Origin: Plazaster borealis
Taxonomy: Eukaryota; Echinodermata; Asteroidea; Forcipulatida; Labidiasteridae
Length of the DNA: 64,000 bases
Direction of reading: 5' to 3'
NCBI GenBank assembly: GCA_021014325.1
Contig: CM037461.1
Span: 8,895,501 to 8,959,500, forward strand
Position numbers and translations under genes: made by a program. The notes beneath the pieces are model-generated. The model worked only from the letters and a program-made list of their open reading frames with translations. It did no database searches and was not told the origin of the DNA. Position 1 is the first letter of the stretch; each line of letters begins with the position of its first letter. Below are positions 19,797 through 44,074 of this stretch, piece after piece.

Positions 19797-22700
19797 TTAA
19801 AGGAACATTACAGAGTTGGTTTTTGCTAACAAAACAGTGTAAGCACCCTATATAATCCACCATATACATAAACTGACAAACCTGTAGAAATTTGAGATCG
19901 ATCGGCCATCTGGGTCAGGAGAAAATAGTGAAAAAAACGATTACACATTTGCATGTGTTATACAATGCATGAATAAAACGCTCATGAGCGATAAACTCCA
20001 ATCGGAAATTAGTTTTATTTATTTCTCATCAAATGTGATGCGATCTGGGAAAACCCGTCGGATGTCGCCGAATCCGTACTGAAGATAATCGAAAAATAGT
20101 CCCCACAACTATTTTTTTCACATTTTGAGTTTTCGGTTTTATTTTGTTGATTAATATCTTTTAATAAGTTGAGTAAAATATATAATACAAATTCCCTTGT
20201 TTTATGTGTAAAAATGTAGTTTTAGGTTGACAGGTTATTAAAAAGTTGCTATTGTTTTTTGTTTCCGCCATATTGTTTGAAAGGACAGCCGTGGCTGTGT
20301 ACATGTACAAGTGCAGCCGATCATAACTCGAGATTGCTTTAGCGTACAGGGCCGAATCACACATCAAAATCAAGCCTAAACACTGTTGAACAAGCCTATT
20401 ATTTCTCCGCAATCGTGTGTACATCCATATACACTGTACATTACATCGCGCGATCGATGTTTACATGTATTGTGACCCTTGGCCTCTTTGCATTTTTTTC
20501 ATTGTGACCTTTTACTTGGCCGCTCAAATTTTGCACCAATTCCAGTGTAATTTTGTTGCCGTATCTTATTTCATTGAGCATTAATAAACAAGATGCTTTG
20601 AGGTACATTTGTGACTTGTTAACATGTGATTTGGTGACTTCTTGGAGGTGTTTTTAGCTTGTAAACTTGGCGAGTTTGAGGGCTTACGTGTGCAAGCCGC
20701 CGTGTGTTGTTGGATTTTTGCGGCGATCCAAGATGGCAGCCTCCGTGGACTCGGAGTCTCGAAATGCAACGCAAGTTGCAGCTTGCATAGACGAAGCGAG
20801 AGGGCTGAATTTGTATTCTTCAGAAGATGATCAAGCTTTGAAAGAAGTCATAGTTGATTATTTCACAGCTAGAGATGCTAGTGATGAATCAGATTCGTCG
20901 GACGATGAGGAGATTTCCGATGACCAGAATGGGGATGCCACCATCGATCATGATTATGATGGTGATGACGTTGACATGATAAGTGACGCTGATCCAGATG
21001 AAAATGAATATGATCAAGGTTTGTTTTGGGTCCTCTTTTTGTTGATAAAAATACAGTGTAATTTTCATAATTTGTATAAACTGAAAATCCAGTAGGTGGT
21101 CTTCAAGCATTGCTTTGGGTCTTTTTGTAATTTCGGGAAATGTTTGGTTTGGTGGCTTGGTGGTGTGGTGAGAATCATATTCAAGATAATTAATAGCAAA
21201 TTGAGATTTCTAAACAGGGTAGAATGGTTCCCTAGGTTACGTATAGCTGAAGTAGTACTACGTCACGAGTAGTGTCAACATTTCAAAAAAATTGAGAACA
21301 GCGCATAAGTTACTGGGTCTAATATAGCTCAGTGTTTTTTTATTTGCACATGTAAAATATTTTCATTCCTATTATTTAAAAAACAAAATTATCATTTTGT
21401 TATTATTATTAATATTATCCTTATCCTTTTTTAGATGATGGGCGCCCTGTTATTGAGGACGTGGATGATATTTTGCCACCTCTTCCACCTTTAGAGGACC
21501 ATGATGACCCACAAGTTGAAGCTGCTGGTGAGTTCAAGTGCAGCTGTAAGCACAATGCAGGTAATCCCTGTTACACAATGTTTGCTGATGGAGAAATTGA
21601 GGCGATTCATTGCTGTTTTCTAGAAATGACTCGTGGTGAATTGGATATAGCAATCTTAGCTAAACTGTCATGTGGTATGCACTTGTCTGATGTGACTTCA
21701 AGATCTAGAAGAGCCAATAGAGAAAGGAAAACACAGAGAACAAACTTCTACCACCACAGCAAAATAATATGTCGTGATACGTTTAAGTATGTCCACGGTA
21801 TTGGACAAGACAAATTGAACAACCTTATCAAACACTACAAAGAAAACTGAGTCATCCCTCGCACACACGACAACAAAAAACGTCGACCATATAATGCAGT
21901 GACGACTGATGACAACATATACGTGGCACATTTTGTATAAAACTATGCTGAGACTCATGCTATGCATTTACCAGGCAGAGTACCAGGCTACTGGCATACC
22001 GACTTAAAACTATTGCCTACAAACTGTTCAAAGAGAATAGTATACGATAGTTACTATGCAGCCGTCACACAGACAACGCATCGTGCTGTATCATTGGTTA
22101 CATTTCGCAGGATCTGGCGGGAAGTTGTTCCATTTGTTGTCACAATGAAACCTTCCACTGATTTGTGTTGGTTCTGTCAGAAACATCAAATGAAAATAAG
22201 TAATGCAGCAAATAGAACGGATGCAGAGAAAGCAGAACTTCATAAAATTGCCACTGACCATCTGCAACAAGCAGGCCGAGAACGCTTGCTGTACAATGAA
22301 GTATGCAAGGAGACTAAAGATAATCTGCCTGTTGGATTAGATTGTGGTCAACACCCCCCGTGCAGCTTTGATGGAAAAATGCACTATAGTATGGACTTTG
22401 CACAGCAAGTGCATTATCCGTCAAATCCCCAGCAACCTGGCCCTGTTTTCTTTAAAACACCAAGGAAGTGTGGAATTTTTGGGGTTGCGTGTGAGGCCCT
22501 TCCCAAGCAAGTAACTTTTCTTTTGGATGAAAGTGTGCAGACTGGTAAAGGCGCTAACTGCGTAATCAGCTTATTTCATTTTTATCTTGACCACTATGGC
22601 CTTGGAGAGACTGACATGCATCTGCACGCAGACAATTGCTCAGGGCAAAACAAAAACTCATACGTTATGTGGTACTTGCTTTGGCGAGTATTAACCGGCA

Positions 22701-24289
22701 GGCACACGTCCATAAAAATGAGCTTCCTACTGGCAGGACACACCAAATTTAGCTGTGATTGGTGTTTTGGTTTATTTAAACGCACGTTCCGTAGAACTAA
22801 AAGTAGATTGTCTAAATGACAATGCTGATACTGTATCAAACTCGAGTACAGCTGGAGTGAATGTCCCACATCTCTGTGGACAGGAGGATGGGACTGTGCT
22901 TGTGAAGGTGTATGATTGGTCATCCTATCTAAGCCACTATTCAACAAAGTTAAGCTAATAAAGTCGAACCACCATTTCCACTTTGACCGCTCATCTACCA
23001 GCGTAACTGTTAAGCGTTTTTGTGACACGGAGAGTTCGGTTCAGGAACTTATTAAAGTCCCCGGTATGCTGCCAGCACACGATGAAATGCCAGAGCAGAT
23101 TCAGCCAAAAGGGCTTGATGCCAAGCGAAAACTCTACTTGTATAAGGAGATATGCGAATTTGTCACAGAGGACAAACAAGATCTTGTGTGCCCTCCACCA
23201 GTTATTGAGGAACCGGAGAGTGATTCAAGCACAGGTGATAGTGATTCAGATGAGGAGACAGCACCACCGCCTCCAAAACGTGGGCGTCAACCACGTGGAC
23301 CAAGACCAAAACATTAACAGTAGACAATATCTAGGAAACTATAAGAAATCAAAGCATCCACCATTTTAAAGATAGCCCCACCCTACCCCAGTAGCAGAAT
23401 AATCTATCAAATACAAAGGCTAAACATAGCTTGGGGGTTAACGTCTTGATGTATTGTACACCATGTGACACAACAGGAAAAACATGGAGACTTGTGTGGT
23501 GGTAAAACTTGATTCAAGTGAAATTTTCAATAGTTACAATTATTCAAACATTGGCCCCCCTCTTCTGTTGGAAAGGGCCACACCCCTAAAAAGGAGGGGT
23601 TTTAGATTGTAGGATTTCCTGGTGTTTGGTATGTGGTTATTTAATTTGACAACCAACATGAAGTCATTAAAGCTCATGCAAATATACAAGTAAAATGTTC
23701 AACAATTTTCTTTAATTAATTTATTCGCATAAATCTAGCTTCCCTCTTACAATGAAATGAGGCCACGCCCCTAAAAAGGAGGTGAGTTGATGTGGTTTGG
23801 CGACAGAAATGTAGGTATTATGATAACAGTTATCATAATATCCAGATTAATAGTTACTATTAACATACAAGCATAGGTCATTATAACAAAAAGACCCCCA
23901 AAAAGGTTGTTTGACGAAATTATAATTTTTGCAATGTTTCAGTCACATTGTCAATATTCAATTTGACCTTTAAAGCTTGATTTCTCAAAACGAGGCCAGC
24001 TGGTCTTACGAACTTCATTAGAGCGTAACTTGAGTTGTGGACATCCTATAACTATAAATAAAACAGTTTTGAAATAAGCAAAGTGTCCCCTTTAATTTCA
24101 TGTATATAACTCAGAAATGACTAATTTCACCATGTGAAGGGTTTTCCCAGATCGCATCACAAATGTGGCATTTCAGACAGAAATATTTCTAGGGATGTTT
24201 TCTATCATCATCATTAGACCGTGTAAGTTTTATGTAAATCTGTGATGTTAAAGAAAATTGTAATTACCAGTTCTGTAACGTTCTTTTAA
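19797..24289 (+). mobile_element. DNA-transposon-like unit with TTAA borders around a DUF7869-like gene
   Basis: The left end TTAA|AGGAACATTACAGAGTTGG (19797-19819) is mirrored by the right end, whose complement reads TTAA|AAGAACGTTACAGAACTGG (24289-24267), with 19 of 23 positions alike. A second inverted word, GTGATGCGATCTGGGAAAAC, lies inward at about 20035-20056 on the left and 24140-24161 (complement) on the right. Both ends carry TTAA, the target duplication of the piggyBac and Kolobok superfamilies. The only long coding region inside is the DUF7869-like gene. I infer that this gene was the transposase of the unit. Its superfamily is not known to me. Confidence 0.55.
20733..23317 (+). 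pseudogene. DUF7869-like (transposase-like) protein, two exons, broken
   Basis: Exon 1 (20733-21018) starts at AAGATGGCAGCC and codes for an acidic N-terminus (DESDSSDDEE). The donor G|GTTTGT and the acceptor TTTTTTAG at 21434 join in phase to exon 2. Exon 2 has a Cys/His-rich start (CSCKHNAGNPCY), then MKPSTDLCWFCQKHQ, MDFAQQVHYPSNP, KTPRKCGIFGV and HADNCSGQNKN, words typical of a family annotated as DUF7869 in many invertebrates. The aspartates in MDFAQ and HADNC could be part of a metal-binding RNase H-like site, which is inference. The C-terminus is acidic and ends in PPPKRGRQPRGPRPKH. Breaks: TGA at 21848-21850, TAA at 21938-21940, frameshifts near 22800 and 22945. Confidence 0.75.
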
Positions 24290-27410: not shown

Positions 27411-28052
27411 AGGAAGTGAACATGTCATTGTCAGATTCATACGGAAAGTTCAAGCAATAAACCATTAGGGAAACTGACTGGGTACATATTTAATTAATTA
27501 ACACCCCCAACCCACCCCATACTCCGACCCAGTAGCTATTCCTTTGCATACAGCCAATTTAGTGACTGCTCCTGTGCCATTATTTAAGTCCGGCTATACA
27601 CAGTCATGTACAATTGGGGTTCAGCACCCACGCCCAACGAAGTTTGGATTGAATGCCTTATTTGAATTACCCGCGATTACACCAGATCCCTTTCATTGTC
27701 ATGTTTTGTGTCTGTGTTTTTTGTTTTGTTTTCTGGTGGGGGATACTGTAAAAGAAATCTAATGGCGGATCCGTACAAAGAGTGAATACACACACATGTA
27801 CTTATCCAGAAAGCTGATGTGAATTGGAATGAATAATGCATTCTTACTCATTTATTAGTAACAGTTGACAAAGGATACGGTTCTGTACCCCTTCATGATT
27901 GGGTGACAGCGCGGTGGGCGGGCTGTATTGTACTTCAAGGATTCTGATTGGATAGGATGTTGTGTACCGTACACTACGTGTGATAAACCGTCAAAACGAA
28001 AGAACGCTAATGCGACGTCAAATTCTAGATGTAACACATCCCAACTTGAAAG
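27411..28052. other. No gene recognised; left flank of the Gypsy element
   Basis: Nothing with recognisable content lies between the short inverted-repeat element and the 5' LTR at 28053. Confidence 0.35.
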
Positions 28053-28247
28053 TGTAGTGAGTTACAGAGTTATGTAATAAATCACTCAGGCGTGCCCGTG
28101 GCCGGCTCGTGTGCGGTGCGCACACACAGCCGTGTTACGGGGCAGTCTGGTAAAAGGTACAACTGAGTCAACACGTCTCGTCTGTCTTGTATCTTACCGA
28201 CTATGCCAGCAGCCAGCTGGGTAAGCCACGCTGCGGCAAATACAACA
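28053..28247 (+). repeat. 5' LTR (195 bp)
   Basis: Begins TGTAGTGAGTTACAG and ends AAATACAACA. AATAAA-like TGTAATAAATC lies near the start. It matches 36969-37163 with about eight differences. Confidence 0.88.
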
Positions 28248-28265
28248 TTGGCGACGAGGGTAAAT
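28248..28265 (+). other. Primer-binding-site-like sequence
   Basis: TTGGCGACGAGGGTAAA directly follows the 5' LTR. The word TGGCGACGAGG occurs after the 5' LTR of many invertebrate Gypsy-type elements; the matching tRNA was not determined. Confidence 0.55.
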
Positions 28266-28783
28266 TCATAATTCTCGTTGTAAAACTTTGTTTCATTTCG
28301 TCGTGTGTTTCCAAAACCGCAAGACATAATTCTGAAGTTATAGAACTGCGTGGTTAGTTCGGATATTGACAGATATTATGAAATTCAAGATTTTTGATGT
28401 TTAAGTATACCGGTATTTTCTGCGGTTGCTGGGAGTACCAAATTATAGGCTATACCTATTTTGTGCATATGTACTATTTTGTTGTACGGTTACTTTATTA
28501 TTGTATAAATATATAAAACTGCTCACTTCTGCTTGCGTGGTGCAAAATTGTTTTCTGCATTTCCGGAATATTAATTTACCGGACAAAAATCTAACGTACA
28601 TAACTGTTAGTCTGGTCAAACTGCTGTGCTGTCATTCCCAGCAGAAGGCGTTAACAGTAAAAGTGAGTGACTGTCCACAAACGGACACAATTATTGAGCA
28701 GTTTTATTACTTAGTGTAGCGTAGATTTAATAAATTTACAACAGACCAATACACGTTTGGCTGTGTATCAGCGGTGGTCCATC

Positions 28784-30689
28784 ATGACAAGCATAAATAA
28801 GGCCAGTGTTAAAGAACTAACTAAATTGCCAGGAATTGGAAGCAAATTTGCTGAAACCATAGTATCGCTGAGGGAAGAAAAGGGATTTGTAACCATTGAC
28901 GACTTTCATGAGACCCCCACCTTGCAATCCAAACTAAACGAATTAGCTGACAAACAACTGATAAATCTTGAATATGCCGATAACCCGACTAATGAAAATG
29001 GTGAAAAAAGCCCTGGTACGGATAAAAATGAAACCGCTAAAACAATCAGTATGCTCGCAAATGAAATGCAAATTTTCATGAAAGTAGTTGAAACTAACAC
29101 AACAAAAACTATCAATGCCATTCAGGAACTCAGTCAGAAGTTGGACGCAAACAAATCTACAAATCCAACCCCACCATTGTTAGAGAATGGGCAGAAATTC
29201 TCTGTTATGCAAAATGCACAACAAACAACTGGGGACCAAATGATTGATGCAACACTAAAAGTCATTGGGGAAAAAGCCCCAACACTACCACCACACATAC
29301 AAGACCATACCCAGTCTAACAAAGGTGCTACTGGGGAACAGAAGTATGATCCCACAAAAGCCAGTAATGCGAATTCTGTGATTGCGTCATCCGAACAAAA
29401 GCCAGTCATCACTACTCCAGGAGTGCACGTTCCGACCATTCAAATGCCATACCAGACTTGGACAAATGAACAAAAGCCATTCAAGGGCCCAGAAGAAGAC
29501 AAAGCCCACACTAACCAAAATGCCAGCACGGCTATTCTATCAAAACAAGTCGGCATCCAAACTAAAAAATGTTCCAAGTCAACACCTTAATTCCACCCAG
29601 CCGCACAGTACAAGTGTGACAACACAGCCTAGTTCTGCCCGCCCACCAAATCGTCTATTTCCAAAGATAGTACCTTATGATGGGATCGGGGATTTCCATG
29701 CTTTTATTATGAAATTTGAAGTAATGGCCGAATGTTGCCAATGGGATGAAAACGTCAAGCTACTACTGTTGGTTGGCGCGCTAACCGGGAAAGCACTCGA
29801 TTGTTATGCGTAGCAAGAACCTCAAACCATGCGCAATTATCAGCAAATTAAAATGCAACTTATGAAGATGTTTGGGGAGATACAAGATCCTATTGTTTAC
29901 CGCGCAGAGATCACCTCTATCCGCCAAAGAGAAAATGAGTCGTTAGTAGAATTCGGACAGCGAGTGTGACAGTTAACCACGCGCGCCTATCGCGCGGCCA
30001 ATACCGACATATTTGAAATGATGGCCGGGGAAGCATTTCTGAGGGGATGTACTGATGTAGTAGACGCAGCGGAACTAGCACTCTACCGCAACCCAAAAAC
30101 TCTCAATGAAGCAATACAGTTCACTCAAACTGCGCAGCATAACCATAAATTGCTTTCCCGATCTAGCAGGCCAAGAGTGCGAAACGTTTCATTTAGTGAG
30201 CAAACTTTGACGCAAACACCAGCAGTACAACAAGTCGATGTAAAGCAAGCGGGGAATGACCAGATCGACATCAGTTTGGACTGGTCAGATCTCAACCAAA
30301 ATATGCGTGAAATACTAGTCCACCTTAAGAATATGCAGATGGTAAACACAACCTCAAATCGTGAACAATTTCCACCGCGCTCGCCTCCGCCACGGCGTAC
30401 CTCACCATATCGGGTAGGCTTTGAAGCTCCGCCAAATCGGCCCTCCTCGTCACCCAGCCGAGGAACATTGGAACCCACTAGTTCCTCACCAAATGATAGG
30501 ACGCTGCCGTACCGTGCTCCTACTCCGCAGACATCCCCCTCTCGACTAGTTTGCTTTAAATGCAATCAGCTGGGACATTTTGCAAGGGATTGCCCCCAAC
30601 GCAAATTCCAATCTCCAACCCGAAACATTACTCCTCCTAGGTATTCCGCCCCTGCTCGTAACAATCATGCGCTTCCTTTAAACGGGTAA
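28784..30689 (+). pseudogene. Gag polyprotein with N-terminal ComEA-type HhH and C-terminal zinc knuckle
   Basis: The ATG at 28784 opens a frame that begins MTSINKASVKELTKLPGIGS, followed by VSLREEKGFVTIDDF; INxAS..EL..LPGIG...A..I...R...GF...DD is the signature of the helix-hairpin-helix domain of ComEA-type DNA-binding proteins. A long polar linker follows. The frame changes between about 29500 and 29590; the capsid-like part then reads PKIVPYDGIGDFHAFIMKFE, LTGKALDCYA and later FEMMAGEAFLRGCTD. Two in-frame stops (TAG at 29811, TGA near 29967) interrupt it. A proline/serine-rich stretch leads to the CCHC knuckle CFKCNQLGHFARDC near 30552 and the stop at 30687. An HhH at the start of Gag is unusual. 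Confidence 0.8.
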
Positions 30690-31495
30690 GGACCGGGTGT
30701 ACTGGCCAACAGTCGGTCACTGATTGCACAGGTACAGGCCAACAAACAAATCTAGGTGCGAAAGAAACCCCCCAACAATTACGGGAACTACAATTCTCCA
30801 CAAACGCAGGTACTAGCTTGATTATTCCGGTTTCTGTACACGGAATACACACACATGCCGTTGTTGATACTGATGCCCAAGTTTCTATTTTGAGTGATGA
30901 CTTTTCAAAAAAATTAGATCTACCAAACTCCTCCGAAAAAATCTTACTCAGGGGAGCAGCAAAACAGAGTACCATAGTCGCCCAAAGGATCCCCAATGTG
31001 ACACCAGAAATAGAAGGTCAAATTTATCACTGGGATTTATTATCTGCCCCCATTGAAGACACATTCATTCTGGGTTTAGATTTTTTGAAATCACATGCAG
31101 GAGTTATCGATCTAGCCGAAGATACAGTACAATTAGGAGGCCTACTAATTCAGGCACAGATGAGAAAAAACGGAAGAGAGAAATATACCATTAGGAAGAT
31201 AGTACTTGATAAAAAAGTTGTGGTTCCTCCTAACACTATAGTGAAAACAAAGGTTGAACTTAACTCCGATAAAGAGAAGACGTACATAATCCATGCTCCA
31301 GAACGTTATCACAAAGGGCTTCTTATTCCACATATGCTAGTTTCACTCAAGGGTACTAACCCTTCCGTAACTAAGGTACCCATAATGCTTCGTAACGATA
31401 GTGATAAGTACATACGGTTGAACAGGGGCCATATCATAGGTAGAGCAGAGGAGGTTCAAGACGTGTATGATAATGCAGAGACTGACTGGACTTAA
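30690..31495 (+). pseudogene. Pol: aspartic protease region
   Basis: The protease frame is shifted relative to gag and is open across the end of gag, so a gag-pol frameshift is likely. The active-site stretch reads HAVVDTDAQVSIL, where the family has D-T-G/S-A; the aspartate in place of glycine would probably abolish activity. FILGLDFLKSHAGVIDL is the usual second protease motif (ILG). The frame ends in TAA at 31493-31495, and the reverse transcriptase region continues in the same frame at 31496, so this is one nonsense codon inside pol. Confidence 0.8.
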
Positions 31496-33193
31496 AACAT
31501 GGACCGGAACCAGCTTTTGTTGGAACCGGACCTTACCTTGGACAGCGCAGAGATTGACCAGCCATTTCAGGACCCAAATTTTTCCGGGACAAATGTAAAG
31601 AATGACTGTCAGCATACCCCGCATAATAGAATTAGGCAGATTAGTGAACTACCTTTGCATATTCTAGATCTGTGGAAGCGATCGTGTGAACATATATCCC
31701 CAGACCAAACACACATTCTAGCTAACACCTTGGTAGAGTATGCTGATATTTTTTCAAAGGACGATATGGATCTGGGTAGATTTTCAAAAATTAAACACTC
31801 GATCCACACAAGTGGCTTTGCTCCAATAGGACAGAAAATGAGGCGAACACCACTGGGATTTGAGGGAGAAGAAAAATCCCACTTAGATACCTTACTGACA
31901 ACAGGGGTTATAAAACCATCTTCCTCAGAATGGGCTTCTCCACCGGTCCTTGTAAGGAAAAAGGACGGAAAAGTTCGTTATTGCATCGATTACAGGGCAT
32001 TGAATGAGGTGACAATCAAAGATGCTTTTCCCCTTCCAAACATTGATGAATGTTTGGATGTTTTGGAAGGAACTGAATTTTTCACCACGCTTGACATGAG
32101 CAGCGGGTATTACCAAATAGAAATTTCAGAAGCGGACAGACACAAAACGGCCTTTATTACCAAACATGGCCTATATGAATATCAACGAATGCCATTTGGT
32201 TTATGTAATGCCCCCGCAACATTTCAAAGAGCCATGACCTTGATTCTTAGGGGAATTAATAACAACGAGGCCTTAGCATATCTAGACGACATTGTCATTT
32301 TGGGAAGGAGTTTTGAAGACTCGTTAGCGAATTTGGTTCGAGTACTAGACAGGTTTCGCCTACACAATCTAAAACTTAAACCCGAAAAGTGTCAAATATT
32401 TCAACGAGAAGTTCTTTTTCTTGGAAAGCTAGTTAGCTGTAAGGGTGTTTCTCCCAACCCAAACAGTGTCACTGCTGTGGAAGAATGGCCGCCGCCAAAA
32501 ACAAGTAAGGAAGTGCAGCGATTTCTAGGTCTTGTCAACTACCACAGGGCACACATTATACACATAGCCGAGCTAGCCCAGCCACTTTATGATCTGACTA
32601 AGAAACATACACCATTCACGTGGTTGGAAAAGCATGAGCATGCGTTCAACCAACTGAAATTGGCATTAACTACTTCACCTGTACTCTCATTTCCTTGTAA
32701 CACCGATGACCCATTTATTTTAGACACAGACGCTTCTGATACCACGATTGGGGTAGAGCTCATTCAGGTTCAAAATGGGGAAGAAAAGGTAATTTGCTAT
32801 GCCAGTTATACCCTCTGTCCGTCCCAGAGAAGATATTGTACTACCCAAAAAGAACTTTTGGCAATTGTCCGATTTACACGACAATTCCGTCACTATTTGC
32901 TGGGACGGAAATTCTATGTGAGAACTGACCATAGTAGTTTAGCTTGGCTTATGAACTTTAAGTATCTCTCTGGAATACTTGCCAGATGGATGGAGGAATT
33001 GAGCCAGTATGAAATGGTAGTTCTCCATAGGAAGGGGGTGGACCACACCAACGCCGATGCTCTTTCTCGAATACCAACCGGCATTCCCTTGCTACACCTC
33101 AGGGTGCGATGTAAAAGATCTTCCCTGTGGTGGTTGCAAATTTTGCACACATATTCATTCCCAATGGAAAAGGTTCGAGGACGATGTCGATGA
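31496..33193 (+). pseudogene. Pol: reverse transcriptase and RNase H
   Basis: The reverse transcriptase shows VRKKDGKVRYCIDYRALNEV, TTLDMSSGYYQI, MPFGLCNAPATFQRAM and AYLDDIVIL (the YxDD catalytic motif). RNase H follows with LDTDASDTTIGV, KELLAIV and RTDHSSLAWL, and the end HTNADALSRIPT is typical of Gypsy elements. After about 33085 the open frame is no longer the conserved one; CDVKDLPCGGCKFC and the following integrase lie in another frame. The catalytic residues of both enzymes are intact within this stretch. Confidence 0.92.
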
Positions 33194-34810
33194 TGTTATG
33201 TCGTTGGCAGTCCAACAAATTAGCACTATTGAGACAGGAGGTTCAGGGAAATTTTCAGAGAGCGATGAAATTCCAGGCAACTAGTGTCCGCTGGATGATT
33301 TGGAAACCTCGCTTTTCACCAAATACACTAGTGAAAGATTAAAAGAAATTCAATTGCAAGACGATGACCTGAAATACATATTGCATTGGATGGAGCATTC
33401 AATTACACCTGCCCAAAATGAAATCCAAATCCTTTCTCCAACCGTGAAATACCTATGGCCCAATCTGTCCCTTCTATGTGTAGTTGATGGTGTTTTGTAC
33501 ATAAGATGGGTAGACGATCAATTCTCCAAACTACTTTTTGTAGCTCCTAGAAAGTTGAAGCAGGAGATAATGAGTCTCTGTCATGAAACAAAACTGGCAG
33601 GACATCCTGGAATAAGCAAAACATTGCAGAAAATCAGGCAATCTGCTTTCTGGTATGGAATGAGTGCAAATGTGTCCCTCTTTGTCAAGTCCTGCAAGGA
33701 ATGCAGCATATACAAGAAGCCATGTAGAAAGGCTAAAGCTTCCATGTCCCTATACCACTCAGGGGCGCCAGTTGAGCATATACATCTTGACATCCTGGGT
33801 CCGTTTTATCTTTCAGTAACTGGAAATAAATACATACTCATGCTTGTCTGCCAATTTACGAAATGGGTCGAAGCTTATCCCCTCCCAGATCAGAAAGCTA
33901 AAAGAGTAGCTAAGGCCACCGTGGATAACTTTATTTCCAGATTTGGGTGCCCTTCACAAATTCACACTGACCAGGGCAGTAATTTTACGAGTTCCCTCTT
34001 TCAGGCCATATGTGACTTATTAGACATTGCCAAGACACGCACGACACCTTACCACCCTAGCTCAAATGGTCAGGTTGAAAGGTACAACCCGTACCATATT
34101 ACAAATGATGAGGTGCCATCTGAAAGGGAGCAACACAAAATGGGATGAAGACCTTCCCATACTCACTGGCGCCCTTCGCGCTCTCCCAAATCGTACTACC
34201 GGTTTCACTCCGAACCTTATGATGCTAGGAAGGGAAGTAAGACAACCCCTCAATCTGGTTTTTGACATTAAAACTACCCCCTAGTGAACAGCCCTGTGAA
34301 TATGTTACTGAACTCAAGGAACGGCTAAACACAGTCCATTCTTTGGCAAGAAAGTCAATTGGTGGGTCGCAAAAATATCAGAAAAAATATTACGACTACA
34401 CCAAAAATCAAACTGCCTTTAAGGAAGGGGATGTCGTGTACAAATTAAACAAAGGTCACAAAGCTGGTCATTCAACTAAACTACAGCCAGTTTGGAAAGG
34501 CCCCTTCCTTGTCATTGAAGTGCTGTCCCCTTTGTTATTCCGTTTAAAGGGTAAAAAGATAAGTTCAGTAGTACATCATGATCTTATTAAGAAATGCGAG
34601 GGCAGGGAATTTCCATTCTGGCTCCGGAGACAGCGCAGCCAACTTCTTGGCAGCGACTCTCAGCAAAACGAGCAGGATCACTCAGAAAATCTTGAAACTG
34701 AATCACTGTTTTCACCCAACTCAGAATACCAGGTTGACCAAATGACCTCCACAAGGAGCGGAAGAATAACTAAACTACCGTCTCACCTAGCTAATTACCA
34801 TATGTATTAA
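33100..34810 (+). pseudogene. Pol: integrase
   Basis: The frame starting near 33057 carries LPCGGCKFC, is interrupted by TAG at 33282-33284 and continues in the same frame. The zinc-binding part reads CHETKLAGHPGISK and later CKECS. The catalytic core has HLDILGPF, HTDQGSNFTS and GQVERYN, which supply the three acidic residues. A frameshift near 34085 and a second near 34270 follow. The C-terminal part (from 34262 to the stop at 34810) has GDVVYKLN and KGPFLVIEVL, a GPY/F-type module that in this group helps target site binding. The integrase is therefore split into three frames. Confidence 0.88.
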
Positions 34811-34877
34811 CACAAATAGATGCCTTCCAGTTGTTTATCGGCAGAAGTCGAGAGATGAACATAACTAACTTCGTAAT

Positions 34878-36463
34878 ATGGGTATATTTGTGCTGTTTTA
34901 CAATTTTTTTTATAAATCTCTAAGAAAAATGGAAGAGGCAGATTTTGTTCCAGACTACTCAGTGACGACTGATGAGGAACAACTTTGGCCATCTGAACCT
35001 CATTCACCAGAAGTGCCTGGCCATGGCGAGCAAGAACTCCCACCGCGGGAGCCAGTATCACTGGGTCCCTCATTGCCAGAGGAGCTATGCCATGTCGATC
35101 TGAGCAAGAGGAACTTGCTTGACGACATCTCAGATTTGGAGCCCATTCCGGTGCCCGTTTCTCCCACACCACCCAGCTCACAGGAAAAACAATTAGGTCT
35201 CAAACAGGTACGTAACCGGAAGCAAACCTGCCCCCAACCGGGATGTGACCACTAAACAAATCGACTAAAACGACACGTTGTCAGACAACATGTGTGCGGC
35301 AGTACATGGTGGGAATGTCACCGCTGGGAGATAGCAGCCCACGTGAACTCTCATGGTCCGTTTCTCCCGGAACGCCACCTTCCAGAACTGGCGACTCTCG
35401 TCAACGCATTTATAGAGCACATCTGTCAGCGTCTAGGGTTAAGAATTGTCGCTGATTTGCTGAATTTTGTTGCCCAGCATCAGTTGGGTGACGAGTATTC
35501 TACATTCATGGCGAAGGAGGCACGTTTATGGGATGCCTTTGATGGTTATGTAGGGCTGCCCACAATAGCCAGACGGAATCTACAGTCGCCCTCACGCGTC
35601 TCTTCCATATTCCATTGGAGGACGCTACAGCGTCTTCTGATCAACCTTCCGCCTATTGCAAGCTTTGCTGACTCACACTGTCACCTTGATCGGCTCTTTT
35701 ATGTTTCTAATCACGCTGGGTGCCTCAGTGACTTTTTATTACGCAACGGCATCGCCAACCAAGGTTTCAGGGGATGCATTGCAGTATTCTGTGATGAGGG
35801 CACCTTGTGTGATGAAAGGCGAGTGAGAGAGCTGATCGCCGACGATAATGTATTCGGTTCTGTGGGGTTCCATCCCAAAAACGCACAGAAATTTAATCAA
35901 GATGTAGAGTTTGCAATTCAAAGCTTTTTGGAGCACCCAAAAGTTTCCGCCTTGGGTAAGATAGGCCTCGATTATGCACGTGGATATGATCGGCACAAGA
36001 CGGCTCAGCAATCGGTCTTTCGGCATCTGTTGAGAGCGGCTGCTGAGTTGAATGTGCCGCTGGTAATCCACTCTAGAGATGCTGAGGAGGACTGCCTTTA
36101 AATCACACGAGTTCCCTACCCAGGCTGCATAAAAGTCATCTCCACTGTTATATGAGTTACTGGGCGGGAGCACAGGTGTGGTTGGCTACATTCCCAAACT
36201 TATTCATTGGGTTTACTAATGCAGTCACCCGTGGTAGTCCAGGCCCCGTAAATGTAGCCATGCACATTCCCCTCACTAAGCTTCTCATCGGAACGGATGC
36301 CCCTTACTTTCCACTCCAAACAGACAGGAAGGCCAACTTCAGTAACCCTACGATGGCAAGATTTGTGGCCAGTAGGGTAGCTGAAATCAGAGGGATACCT
36401 GAAGATGACGTATTGCTCCAGACTCTAAAGAACACAGAGGAAGTATACAACATTAAATTCTAA
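34878..36463 (+). pseudogene. Zinc-finger plus TatD-family nuclease carried by the Gypsy element
   Basis: The gene lies in the place of an envelope gene. Two starts are possible (34878, 34929); the second avoids an odd aromatic leader. An acidic, proline-rich N-terminus leads to a C2H2-like finger (CPQPGC at 35229, then RLKRHVVRQH) interrupted by TAA at 35253-35255; the frame goes on to a second Cys/His-rich part. The TatD domain starts at about 35660 with ADSHCHLDR (metal-binding HxH), then GSVGFHPKNA, VIHSRDA and, after a frameshift near 36098, HLHCY, FIGFTNAVTR and GTDAPYFP, ending at 36463. TatD proteins are metal-dependent DNases. The usual glutamate of the GEIGLDY motif is lysine here (AAG at 35958-35960), so this copy would probably be inactive even without the two breaks. 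Confidence 0.85.
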
Positions 36464-36955
36464 TTCTCAGGAAACCTACTCAACTATACCAAACTTGCAA
36501 AATACATATATTTGCAGCCAAGGAGATTATATTAAATACATGTACTTCTACATTAAAGTTATGAAAGAACCAAAGAACCAAAGAAATTCTGTTTAATATT
36601 TGTGTATAAGTTAAAGATAAATTTAAATGTTATAAGAACAAAATAAGAAGATTAACCAGAAGATAAATCGGCCATCTTTTGTTGATATTATTTCCTTCTC
36701 TGTGACATTCATCACATCACGGACGAGAAGTCCGGCACTGGTAGAGAGAGTAGTGTACAAGTTAACAGATGCTAAACATAAGAATGACGAGAAGTCTACA
36801 TGCGGCGTCTTTATATAAGCACGGAGGAGAAGGCGGACAATTTTAAAATTGCATTTGGCCGACATATTTTGTATTGTTAAGGAAAAAGTTACGGGATTTA
36901 TTACTAAAAAAAGTGTTTTGAAAAGTTAAGGCATTTATATAAATTTAAGCAAATA
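36464..36955 (+). other. 3' untranslated part of the Gypsy element
   Basis: AT-rich sequence between the TatD stop and the polypurine tract without recognisable genes. Confidence 0.5.
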
Positions 36956-36968
36956 GGACAGGGAGGAG
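36956..36968 (+). other. Polypurine tract
   Basis: GGACAGGGAGGAG lies directly before the 3' LTR, where plus-strand synthesis is primed in LTR elements. Confidence 0.75.
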
Positions 36969-37163
36969 TGTAGTGAGTTACAGAGTTATGTTATAAATCA
37001 CTCAGGCGTGCCTGTGGCCGGCTCGTGTGCGGTGCGCACACACAGCCGCATTACGGGGCAGTCTGGTAAAAGGTACAACTGAGTCGACACGTCTCGTCTG
37101 TCTTGTGTCTTACCGACTAGGCCAGCAGCCAGCTGGGTAAGCCACGCTGCGGCAAATACAACA
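36969..37163 (+). repeat. 3' LTR (195 bp)
   Basis: Begins TGTAGTGAGTTACAG and ends AAATACAACA, like the 5' LTR at 28053-28247, with about eight substitutions. Confidence 0.88.
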
Positions 37164-38813
37164 AATACATGCAAGGTTTCAGCTCGATTGCACATTTTTT
37201 CTGCATTTATTAATCTTGTATTACTGCACCTTTAAGTTCACGCGATCCACGATGTGTATCGTCAAGAATTTATCGTGATATTCAATAATATTGCGATTAA
37301 TTTTTGATGACGTCAATCTTCTACAAAGCTCACAGAGCAAGTTGTAGAACCGACCGTAAACATTCCACTTTGCTCCAATGACCTACACTTTTGGTTTTAC
37401 TCTATATTGGGTGAAAACCTGGGCCTATTACTTACACGCATTTACTGAGTTAACTACTGCGCATGACAGACTGTTCCATATCTGTGCATAACTAATTAGA
37501 TCACGCTACTCGCATGCATGCAACATGTGATAACACGCGGAACGATCTCAACACTATAGCGCATTGTATGTGTTTTCAGTGCAATTCTTTTCACACGCAA
37601 TTTAATTTAAGAAAGAACGAGTCGATACCGGATTTCAACCGGAAGCTAAGGTCAAATAGGTAACATATCTGTGGAAAAGTTTGAGAGGACTTAAGGACAT
37701 ACAACCTGATGTTAAAATTAAGAGTAAGGTGTTTGTAAAATGTATGAATATTTCTTAAAGTATGAATCGTGAACTTTTCAACTTCCGGTTTGAACAGGAA
37801 GCTGAGGTCAAACGATATAAGACTCTGTGTAGTATTTGCTTAATTTTTAAAGACCTCTCAGATGATGTGTAGATTGTTATAACAGCGTTTGTACTTCTTG
37901 AGTTACGAATTTTTAAAGAATTAAACTTTGAGTTACTGTATTTTAACACTTGATGACGTCATCATGACGTCACAACTACTTGATTAAGGTTTTATTAAGG
38001 TCCTTACATGGTGTAAATTTGAAGTCGATTTGATGATATACAGAAGTTAATGTTTTTTGCCGGGAAAATTATTTTTAAAGAATTACACAAGGGCAAACTT
38101 TGACCTTTCGGTACGACTGGAAGTAAAGGTCATGTGAATTTGGCGTTAACTTTTCAAATGTTGCCCGTATCTTGATCTATCATATGCACAAATATGAAAA
38201 TGTAGCTCAAATATTCAGAGACATACAGGCATTGGCATATGGTCACTTTTTGAACTTAAATGACTTGTAACTTGACACCCGATGACGTAATCGTGACGTC
38301 ACAACTTACTCAGCTTCTGATACTTATGTTCTAACTTCACCTGAAGTTTCAAGTTGATCAAAGGTTCGCAAGTATGTGTTTGCTTGCGGACAAAGCCCAC
38401 TGAGAAGAATAAGCAAAACTATAAAATAAAATAAAAAATTAAAAAACGAACAAAAATAAAGAGTTGTTCGGGCTTAATGCCCGAACACCTAAAAAAAAAA
38501 AAAAACCCTGAACAATAGCAAACACCTAATAAAATAACATTTAAACAGTATGAAAAAACCACACTGAATACAGGAAGGGGCATTTTGCTCAACATAGATC
38601 AATTTTGTTTATTCTGTTCGCACGTGAACCTGTCTGGCAGCCATTGTCCAAACTATTTCCTTATTCAAAGTATCCCTTTGCAAATCCCTGGTCTCTTCCC
38701 TTTCCTTCAACCACCAGAATAATTTTCATCTAGATAAAAAAAGTAAAGATATCCATGGGGTTCACATCTGAGACTAGCTGTATGCATAGGCCATGTGAAC
38801 TAATATACAGTAC
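37164..38813. other. No gene; contains a hairpin-ended old repeat
   Basis: Short repeats of the kind GGAAG...GAGGTCA and TGACGTCA-containing words recur between 37620 and 38330. At 38466-38490 a hairpin (TTCGGGC-TTAAT-GCCCGAA) is followed by CACCTAA and an A run; a similar hairpin (TTTCGGC...GCCGAAA then CCCCTAA) ends a block at 41819-41847. Both look like 3' ends of one interspersed repeat type, Helitron-like or SINE-like. Confidence 0.4.
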
Positions 38814-39643
38814 CTGTTTATACTGGTCCAGTGCCTTTTCCTCATGTGTGCAACCCCACTGTGTAGCCTTCGATGAGAATTTGGATCCATAACACACATT
38901 TTTGATGAGACTTATTGATGGCAATGCTGGGTAGGTATGACAAGCCTGGTGGAACTTGCTAGCTGTTATCCTTCCAGCTCGCATCTGAAACCAGAGAAAA
39001 GACTTGCTTTGGGATCTTGTAGACTTTTCTATCACCTGAGACTGCGCTGCACTAACATTGATCTTAGCGAATGTCTCCCTTGATTCGGCCAGTAAATCTT
39101 GGTAGCCCAGTGAGACAAGTTCTTCTTGGTACAGTTCAGTCAGTGGCTTGGGCAGATTGAGAGTTTCTGTCTTTGGCCGGTAATTGTGATTGTTAGGTGG
39201 AATAAGTGATAGGATGGCAGGACTAGTCTTTGTAGAGTGCAGTTGTTCATAGAATTGCCTGATTTGTGCTGGTGATGGGACATAAGTAGCTTTCGCAGTA
39301 CCAATTGCATTGGATGTAGGTACAGAAGATTGAATTCCACTTATCTGTGCATATATTTTCTTTTTTTTTGTTTTACATGAGGTAAAGTCAATGTCTCTCA
39401 GTTCATGATATGGCACACTTGACACAGGAGTTGGCATAATCCACCTACAGGGAGCAGGCGACATGTCTTTGACTTCACTAGGCGTACTCCAGCATCTATT
39501 GCAAACAGCAAAGCCCCAGCATGAGAACAGGCTTCACCAAAGCCCGCCATGCAGTTGCAGTGAGCTGTTGTTACTGTGCCATTGTTTGTTGCAGCCACCC
39601 AGGGTGTCAATGGAGCCTCATCCAAGCGCTGAGAGTGGTTTAG
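38814..39643 (-). pseudogene. SWIM zinc finger plus YqaJ-type nuclease, one exon with frameshift
   Basis: The minus-strand exon lies between the acceptor TTCCATACAG at 39644-39651 and the donor AACAG|GTACTG. It starts [18 protein letters not shown] and shows the SWIM motif [20 protein letters not shown] (CxC...CxH). After a frameshift near 39460 it continues with [17 protein letters not shown] and DIDFTS, and then, about 150 residues on, with [20 protein letters not shown] and [17 protein letters not shown]. The latter is the start of a YqaJ/lambda-exonuclease-like domain. Such SWIM-YqaJ proteins are numerous in cnidarians, echinoderms and fish and are thought to belong to, or derive from, mobile DNA. 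The catalytic D...ExK part would lie in a following exon, which I did not find. Confidence 0.75.
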
Positions 39644-42089: not shown

Positions 42090-42913
42090 CATCAAAAGGT
42101 TGGACACAGTGTTTACCAGGGTGGGAGATTTTGGGTTGAAGATAAAGGGAAAGAAATGTAAGCTCCTCCAGAGCCAAGTTAATTATCTAGGCCATGTGGT
42201 AAACTGCCAAGGCATCTCGGTGGACAATGACAAAATTGAGAAAATACAAAACTGGCCCGTCCCCGAGAACGCTGAAGGGAAAGAAATGTAAGCTCCTCCA
42301 GAGCCAAGTTAATTATCTAGGCCATGTGGTAAACTGCCAAGGCATCTCGGTGGACAATGACAAAATTGAGAAAATACAAAACTGGCCCGTCCCCGAGAAC
42401 GCTGAACAGTTGAGATCGTTTTTGGGACTAACGGGGTACTATAGAAGATTTGTTAAAAATTTCTCAAGATTGGCAGCTCCATTGCATGCGCTGGTTCCTC
42501 CGGTCCAGGCCAAGGGTAAACCAAAGAAGGGTATTCCAAAGTTCGATTGGGGAACTGAGGCTCAGGAGGCTTTCGGCGAATTAAAGAGGGAACTGACTCA
42601 GACCCCGGTCCTTGCGTATCCAGATTTCACTCGCGCATTTGTCTTAGAGACCGATGCATCACTAAAGGGTCTGGGAGCATGTTTAGCACAAGAAGATTCA
42701 GAGGGGAAAAGACATCCTATTGCTTACGCGAGCCGCGGTCTAAGGGGAGCCGAGGCCAATTACCCAGATTATACCTCTTTTAAGCTGGAACTGCTTGCCT
42801 TGAAGTGGGCTGTTGTAGACAAGTTTAGGGACTATCTTTTAGGGGTGCCCTTTACAATCCTCACAGATAATAATTCCACTTGCACATTTGAAGACGGCAA
42901 AGTTAGGGGCGTG
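42090..42913 (+). pseudogene. Reverse transcriptase C-terminus and RNase H
   Basis: The thumb and connection region shows GKKCKLLQSQVNYLGHVVNC and LRSFLGLTGYYRRFVKNFSR, and RNase H shows LETDASLKGLGACLAQ and ELLALKWAV, then ILTDNN. The 130-bp tandem duplication 42147-42406 puts part of the protein out of frame. After ILTDNN the frame is lost and continues in another frame at about 42888. Confidence 0.85.
42147..42406 (+). repeat. Exact 130-bp tandem duplication inside the reverse transcriptase
   Basis: 42147-42276 and 42277-42406 appear identical, from GGGAAAGAAATGTAAGCTCC to CCCGAGAACGCTGAA. As 130 is not a multiple of three, the duplication breaks the frame. It is very young or an assembly artefact. 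Confidence 0.9.
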
Positions 42914-44074
42914 TGAGATGCGGTGGATCGCACAGTTAGCGCCATTCAATTTTGATGTGAAATTTCGTTCGGGTCGAAGTAACCGTTGTGCGGATGACTT
43001 GAGTCGCTATCCCAGTCAGAGCATGGAGGAAGTAGAAGTGACTATACAGGATAAAGTTCATTCCTGTTCTGTTCCACTCAGAGCTGTCGTAATGGCAACC
43101 AAATTGGAACAGTCTAATGGTAATTCACCTCCTGACACTGTAGGACCCCAGGTGTATTCCCTTCATGGTCCCCAAGACAACTGAAATCATTTCAGAAGTC
43201 AGATCCAGTACTGGGGTTAGTTTTGGAACTTTGGGACAAGAGATGGGCCCCCGGGGAGGCTACACCAGAGGGATATTCTGATTCACCTGAGTTAAAGTTA
43301 TGGCTAGGACAATGGTCTCGGTTTGTTGAACGGGACAATGTCCTATGCAGAAGGGTGATGGATCCGGTGCTGGGGGAGTTATTCCAAGTACTCTTGCCAA
43401 AGAGTTTACAGTCTGGGATAATTGAGGGATGTCATGACGGATGGGGACACCAGGGTGTGACTCGTACATGCTCATTGTTGAGAAGGCGAGTTTAATTGGC
43501 CCCGGATAACGGCGGCTGTGCGTCGTCATATTCACCGTTGCAAGTTATGCACGATTGCTAAGGCTACACAGCCACAAATTAGAGTGCCCATGAGGCACCT
43601 CTTGGCTTTTCGACCTTTAGAGGTTTTGGCAATAGACTTTGTCAAGGTAGACAGGGGTCGAGGTGGTTATGAAGATGTACTAATCATGACGGACGTGTAC
43701 ACAAAGATTTCACAGGCGGTACCTTGCAAGGACCAAATTGCAGTTACCGTGGCGAAAGTTCTCAGGGACCAGTGGTTTACTAAGTTTGGGATTCCAACCC
43801 GGCTTCATAGTGATCAAGGGAGAAATTTTGAGGGAGACATCGTCAGGGAATTGTGCTCACTATATGGGATTAAAAAGTCACGAACCACCCCTTACCATCC
43901 AGAGGGGAACGCCCAAGCGGAACGTTTTAATCGCACCCTTTTCGGTCTCATTAAATCCTTAGATGAGCGAGATAGATACAAGTGGCCAGACCTGGTTTCA
44001 CACCTGGTGTTTGTGTACAACGCCACACCGCACTCTGCGACTGGCATTGCACCGTATACTCTCATGTTCGGAAG
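42888..44074 (+). pseudogene. RNase H end and integrase core of the second Gypsy element
   Basis: The frame from 42888 (GACEMRWIAQLAPFNFDVKF, ADDLSRYP) ends RNase H. A second frame from about 43205 has WDKRWAPGEATPEGYSDSPE and the zinc-binding CHDGWGHQGVTRTCSLLRR. A third, from about 43490, has HRCKLCTIAKA, AIDFVKVDRG, HSDQGRNFEGDI and GNAQAERFNR, which provide the DDE residues. At TLMFGR the sequence stops at the LINE insertion (44076) and resumes at 47821 in the same reading. At least two frameshifts (near 43180 and 43495) break it. Confidence 0.85.

Follow-up and report, generated by a model that had tools for sequence, protein, structure and literature searches.

A TatD-family nuclease as a probable third gene of Ty3/Gypsy retrotransposons in the sea star Plazaster borealis

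The interval between the integrase and the 3′ LTR is the place where retroviruses and errantivirus-like Gypsy elements carry their envelope genes. In the LTR retrotransposons Vesta and Juno of bdelloid rotifers, according to the excerpted text of the report on them (PMC5408684), third ORFs coding for a DEDDy exonuclease and a GDSL esterase follow pol and have kept most of their catalytic residues. An excerpt of a second report (PMC9289625) describes an AlkB (2-ODD) RNA demethylase ORF fixed as an additional enzyme gene in one plant lineage of Ty3/Gypsy elements, in orchids, with activity in vitro. As regards cellular TatD enzymes, the excerpted text of PMC12709183 presents E. coli TatD as a 3′-5′ exonuclease on single strands human TATDN2 as resolving R-loops and acting on RNA as a 3′ exonuclease and endonuclease, and medaka tatdn2 as required in primordial germ cells. 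The first-pass annotation of the DNA studied here knew of no description of TatD as a fixed part of a Gypsy element, and no title or abstract opening listed in our searches of the open literature described a TatD gene in a retroelement.

In a 64,000-nucleotide stretch of P. borealis DNA (the window, i.e., the whole stretch analyzed), a Ty3/Gypsy LTR retrotransposon of 9.1 kb occupies positions 28053-37163 (Table 1). A direct repeat of 197 nt (28051-28247 and 36967-37163, seven mismatches) yields, when trimmed to TG...CA, the two 195-bp LTRs that had been proposed from the first reading, with a K80 divergence of 0.037. Together with a gag-PR-RT-RH-IN array in Gypsy order, a primer-binding site (PBS) and a polypurine tract (PPT), this LTR pair provides the features by which Ty3/Gypsy elements are recognized. 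The frames of gag and pol are broken as well as that of the third ORF, and judged from these frames the window copy is dead. Its flanks (AAAG and AATA) contain no target-site duplication, so the copy may have been altered after insertion.

Table 1. Features of the Ty3/Gypsy element in the window.
Feature	Position	Strand	Remarks
5′ LTR	28053-28247	+	195 bp, TG...CA
Primer-binding site	28249-28266	+	starts TGGCGACGAGG; basis: position and TGG start, read by eye
gag, first open piece	28715-29590	+	helix-hairpin-helix, HHH_3 E 1.5e-11 (Pfam)
gag, CCHC zinc knuckle piece	29970-30689	+	zf-CCHC E 2.3e-8 (Pfam)
Aspartyl protease piece	30662-31495	+	gag-asp_proteas E 4.6e-7 (Pfam)
Reverse transcriptase and RNase H piece	31496-33193	+	RVT_1 E 8.6e-33, RT_RNaseH E 2e-32 (Pfam)
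Integrase, zinc-binding and core	33285-34148	+	Integrase_H2C2 E 2.1e-18, rve E 2.3e-16 (Pfam)
Integrase C-terminal piece	34241-34810	+	Integrase_p58_C E 3.6e-6 (Pfam); frame stop 34810
Third ORF, first open piece	34869-35255	+	first ATG 34878; ends in nonsense codon 35253-35255 within C2H2 finger
C2H2 finger	35229-35291	+	recognized by eye; no finger among the Pfam matches
Third ORF, second open piece	35256-36101	+	finger end, helical HWR stretch, TatD first half
Third ORF, last open piece	36086-36463	+	TatD second half
Polypurine tract	36949-36968	+	ends GGACAGGGAGGAG; read by eye
3′ LTR	36969-37163	+	195 bp

The third ORF lies between the integrase stop and the PPT and 3′ LTR, and hence inside the element, as the first-pass annotation had placed it. 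The TatD family (PF01026, cut-off 27 bits) was recognized above threshold in two of its pieces, in the frame 35256-36098 with E 4.7e-27 and 95.4 bits (profile positions 2-137 of 253) and in the frame 36086-36460 with E 1.9e-16 and 60.7 bits (148-253 of 253). The gene thus shares the position of envelope genes and matches TatD; no envelope family was among the Pfam matches of the window pieces up to E 1. The second open piece is 48% identical to protein P0001 at 99% coverage, and the CxxxxC...H pattern of the finger was seen again in the copy C3b and in protein P0242. All three lesions named in the first reading are present, namely the nonsense codon, a frame change inside TatD near 36086-36101, and a lysine in place of the metal-site glutamate (GKIGLDY, codon 35958-35960). 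The window furthermore reads LIGTDAPYF, with G where ETDAPYF usually has E.

In order to find further copies, the TatD piece 35256-36098 was used as query against the genome assembly (560.6 Mb, 717 contigs), and 21 candidates were scored. Twenty matching rows grouped into 12 TatD places, comprising one host TATDN2 gene on C20, which is spliced into at least three exons and has normal motifs, and 11 element places. These 11 could not be accepted as independent insertions, since the upstream flanks of C20 and C480 are 99.7% identical over about 10 kb and those of C1 and C6 are 99.6% identical; each pair was therefore counted once, leaving nine insertion loci (window, C7a, C1/C6, C20/C480, C14, C3a, C7b, C7c and C3b). 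Every locus was found through TatD, so relatives without TatD would escape this count; two distant Gypsy copies (window 42109-43982 and L125, RT 34-36% identical) had no TatD match.

A Gypsy integrase stands upstream of TatD in the same order and orientation at seven of the nine loci. Six of them have RT plus integrase (window, C7a, C20/C480, C7b, C7c, C3b) and one, C1/C6, the integrase C-terminus alone, while C3a consists of nothing beyond a TatD fragment. LTR pairs flank TatD at five loci (window, C3b, C7b, C7c, C14), with none found at C7a, C20/C480, C1/C6 and C3a. Target duplications of 4 bp accompany the LTRs at C3b, C7b, C7c and C14, the window copy being the exception, and PPT-like tracts are present at the same four loci; the start of the PBS is identical in the window, C7b, C7c and C14 and differs in C3b. 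At C14 (10856384-10858754), a 200/201-bp LTR pair, a PBS and a 4-bp duplication enclose a TatD fragment with no pol match, and on this structure C14 is an internally deleted copy. As a separate observation on gag, that of C3b (L123:8000-8770) apparently has, when read by eye, a helix-hairpin-helix like the N-terminus of the window gag.

Whether the gene order recurs in other copies had been posed as a check in the first reading, and it does recur; the opposite case, that no other copy has the TatD gene, is contradicted by the additional loci. Because related elements carry it in the same place, the TatD gene appears to be a tool that the element has kept for long, and no accident. On its predicted domains, it is an enzymatic third ORF of LTR retrotransposons present in independent copies. 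We consider it very probable, from these comparisons of sequence, that the window element is a decayed Ty3/Gypsy copy from a group carrying a third gene, composed of a C2H2 finger, a helical HWR module and a TatD nuclease, between integrase and 3′ LTR. Such a gene adds a new enzyme class to those known from animal LTR retrotransposons. It resembles the bdelloid case in being an enzyme gene after pol, there in one instance also a nuclease; the bdelloid nuclease belongs to the DnaQ-like superfamily, whereas the fold here is that of the TatD metal-dependent hydrolases (PMC5408684, excerpted text). The orchid elements are similar in that a lineage of Gypsy has likewise gained a fixed extra ORF for an enzyme, there an RNA demethylase in one plant lineage, with activity in vitro (PMC9289625, excerpt).

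The copies fall into two lineages. Lineage A includes the window, C20/C480, C7a, C1/C6, C14 and, by similarity, C3a, and it has relatives outside this genome in Patiria miniata and Asterias amurensis (P0002, P0005). Lineage B includes C3b, C7b and C7c, whose integrases carry a C-terminal PHD finger (Pfam E 2.2e-12 to 6.7e-9; L036:6147-7730 and L037:5976-8186 on the minus strand, L038:2987-3736), possibly a chromatin-reading module; a PHD finger was absent from the Pfam matches of the window integrase C-terminal piece. The third ORFs of A and B are about 25-30% identical and have in common a C2H2-like pattern and a helical stretch that ends in an HWR motif. When the regions upstream of TatD were compared between lineages with hhalign, they matched with E 2.7e-6 and a probability of 88.6%, in a segment that spans the helical stretch and excludes the finger; a reversed control gave E 0.26. 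Since this profile match beats its control, the homology of the two third ORFs probably extends past TatD.

A profile search for relatives outside the genome retrieved 115 proteins. The top match, P0242, is a partial gene model of Acanthaster planci, 64% identical to the C3b ORF, that joins integrase, PHD and TatD in one chain; it is the sole protein of the 115 with an integrase domain, in a search whose candidates were limited in length, and the joining may be an artefact of gene prediction, the model being partial. Sea urchins (Strongylocentrotus, Lytechinus, Diadema), the hemichordate Ptychodera, the bivalves Pinctada, Mya, Tegillarca, Crassostrea, Mercenaria and Ruditapes and the gastropod Elysia also gave matches, all at the protein level. 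Four 'TatD family hydrolase' entries under Sedimenticola or Candidatus Thiodiazotropha (P0247, P0262, P0272, P0278) come from short contigs of metagenome bins; they resemble animal retroelement ORFs and are probably animal DNA in symbiont bins. Two scans of viral contigs found no relative, the best 80 of 591 confirmed matches of the contig scan were all in records titled as bacteria, and Rfam gave no match. In PMC6962438, a figure of the giant squid Hox cluster shows a TATDN2 ORF in the company of POGK and ZMYM1, which are transposon-like; this is perhaps another element-borne TatD.

On a broader reading, a large group of Gypsy elements, present across echinoderms, hemichordates and molluscs, would have carried TatD since ancient times as a third gene required for its function, and many of the genes named 'TATDN2' or 'TatD-like' in invertebrates would be retroelement genes that act in the germ line on RNA-DNA intermediates of their own element; we regard this as quite possible, if a little short of an even chance. 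Invertebrate 'TATDN2' annotations call for caution, as they can be retroelement genes.

To place the element TatD domains, we built a tree from nine lineage-A rows, 24 lineage-B rows, 10 bacterial rows and 13 TATDN2 rows, one of them the host gene; five chosen proteins lacking the start motif, the only TATDN3 among them, were dropped beforehand, and the tree has no TATDN1 or TATDN3 rows. Lineage A (100/99), lineage B (100/100), the bacteria (100/99) and TATDN2 (91/83) each formed a group, and the grouping of the host TATDN2 with lineage A was rejected (p-AU 0.0048). The element TatD was accordingly not retained as a TATDN2 orthologue, and the local capture of the host gene that the first reading had allowed for is refuted. 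The same reading had suggested that a phylogeny against TATDN1, TATDN2 and TATDN3 would reveal the source of capture: the element groups do stand apart from TATDN2, but because TATDN1 and TATDN3 are not among the rows, the source can be called only 'TATDN2-like'. TATDN2 proteins are the nearest cellular TatD relatives of the element TatDs in both the protein search and the tree; the host gene differs from them in being spliced and in showing no homologous finger-HWR region. We infer that the third gene descends from an old TATDN2-like animal gene and was kept by the elements for long.

The relation between the two lineages bears on whether the third gene was inherited or exchanged. In the free tree, lineage A was placed beside TATDN2 instead of lineage B, weakly (80/52). 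An RT tree was made of 126 rows, six of them pieces of this genome and the other 120 hits. Its three A rows form a group (88), its B rows require two changes, and the two lineages fall into different wings. Both trees would suit a trade of TatD third ORFs between retroelement lineages, with A and B drawing theirs independently on host genes or on a common pool, and third-ORF exchange is described for bdelloids in the excerpted PMC5408684. A single TatD clade of A and B is neither supported nor rejected, though (p-AU 0.52), and the homology of the helical stretch upstream of TatD, together with the agreement of A and B in the position of TatD, in similar PPTs and in 4-bp duplications, speaks against separate acquisition, which we judge somewhat unlikely.

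TatD enzymes bind their metals through an HxH motif, a glutamate, two further histidines and an aspartate. Among the 24 lineage-B rows of the tree, HxH and the E of E[IV]GLD are kept in all, and a 16-row lineage-B alignment shows no variation at either HxH histidine, at the glutamate or at the two further histidines, with the last aspartate conserved at 90% or above. In lineage A, the E of E[IV]GLD is found in seven of nine rows, the window and C7a (L022:708-1436) having lysine, so that the full ligand set is not present in the window copy; C6 has HLYCF in place of HLHCF. AlphaFold models of a lineage-A protein (P0003, mean pLDDT 85.8, first 37 residues poor) and a lineage-B protein (P0245, mean pLDDT 88.3) both consist of a TatD barrel and a helical module, with a disordered linker in the latter. 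The best PDB matches of both models are TatD DNases. A fold search with the lineage-B model returned TatD and amidohydrolase-type barrels, and no named fold for the helical module.

Selection on the TatD domain, which the first-pass annotation had put forward as a sign of cargo that matters to the element, was addressed by counting differences at codon positions 1/2/3. These were 52/39/123 between C7a and C6, 44/36/79 between the window and C7a, and 58/47/119 between the window and C6, so that third positions hold a share of 0.50-0.57 in lineage-A TatD pairs (p 1.5e-5 to 4e-13 in a binomial test against one third). Such an excess, seen here between lineage-A copies that have diverged, speaks for selection on TatD. 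For comparison, the RT of the window and C20 gave 85/47/216, and C3b against C7b, a far-diverged pair, 280/209/313. The counts stand in for dN/dS because synonymous sites are saturated in lineage A and C7b and C7c are too close; a C7b/C7c row for the N-terminal half of the third ORF, which aligns across a frame difference, was left out. The bdelloid third ORFs, according to the excerpted text of their authors (PMC5408684), do not deviate significantly from neutral evolution, whereas the element TatD shows a third-position excess.

As to its use, the finger and the helical module would tether the protein to nucleic acid, and the two-metal TatD site would then trim 3′ ends or strip RNA from RNA-DNA hybrids. 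The substrates would be the replication intermediates of the element itself, in germ cells, comparable to the R-loops on which the host TATDN2 is reported to act. By analogy, the likeliest use, which we propose tentatively, is to process RNA-DNA intermediates or 3′ ends of the element. Next likeliest, and in our estimate unlikely, is that the TatD protein disarms host silencing: directed to its target by the finger, it would degrade piRNA precursors, small-RNA guides or sensed nucleic acid. A predicted nuclease with a nucleic-acid-binding finger that is under constraint would be suited to this, the RNA activity reported for TATDN2 (PMC12709183, excerpted text) agrees with it, and the fast divergence of A and B (about 30% identical) is of the kind that an arms race would produce. 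That divergence may, however, simply reflect age, and the conserved catalytic core equally suits a fixed step of replication. Under either use, the gene hints at a TatD-linked step in retroelement life cycles, at 3′ ends, RNA-DNA hybrids or silencing RNA.

No unbroken third gene was seen among the lineage-A copies examined in this genome. Lineage B comprises recent insertions, with an LTR divergence of 0.3-1.4%: the 320-bp LTRs of C3b differ at one of 320 sites, those of C7b (374/368 bp) by five substitutions and six gap columns, and those of C7c (374 bp) by three substitutions. Along the element, C7b and C7c share 98.6-98.7% identity; since the identity stops at the LTR borders and the flanks differ, they are separate insertions. 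The C2H2-TatD frame is open in two of the three lineage-B copies. In C3b it runs for 453 codons from the first ATG to a stop 39 nt upstream of the 3′ LTR, and gag and integrase show frame changes; C7b has an open frame of 583 aa with finger and TatD, the N-terminal extension of its third gene lying in another frame; and the third-ORF frame of C7c has one stop. Because recent insertions keep this frame open, the role of an extra nuclease in a retroelement can be tested. In a side observation, the stretch by which the third ORF of C7c is extended at its N-terminus (L037:4979-5979 region, minus strand) matched nine of the 115 proteins of the profile search with E < 1e-3 (P0285, P0292 and P0244 among the matches), an unnamed extra domain.

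These insertions also bear on whether TatD belongs to the Gypsy element at all. It could be part of another mobile element that repeatedly inserts beside Gypsy integrases, given that C2H2-TatD proteins of unseen context exist and that TatD lies without nearby pol at C14 and C3a; with position and orientation fixed at seven loci, only 39 nt between TatD and the 3′ LTR in C3b, and same-type LTRs, PBS and duplication around the TatD of C14, we find this very improbable. Least credible of all is a chance capture of TATDN2 by one element as a passenger with no role, which the broken window copy without target duplication might suggest and which the eight further insertion loci (six with integrase upstream), a host TATDN2 that is spliced, located elsewhere and outside lineage A, the codon-position bias and the recent insertions with open TatD frames all oppose; as a one-off event, it is ruled out by the repeated loci and the tree.

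Several other features were noted in the window. Directly downstream of the element, on the minus strand, lies an open frame resembling YqaJ or viral alkaline exonucleases (38730-39533). The second, distant Gypsy fragment at 42109-43982, with an RT about 34% identical and no TatD match, includes two exact 130-bp tandem copies (42145-42406). Between 44515 and 49449, successive open frames match an endonuclease, a reverse transcriptase and, weakly, a GDSL lipase, in a LINE-like arrangement, and a DUF7869 open frame is found at 21941-22819.
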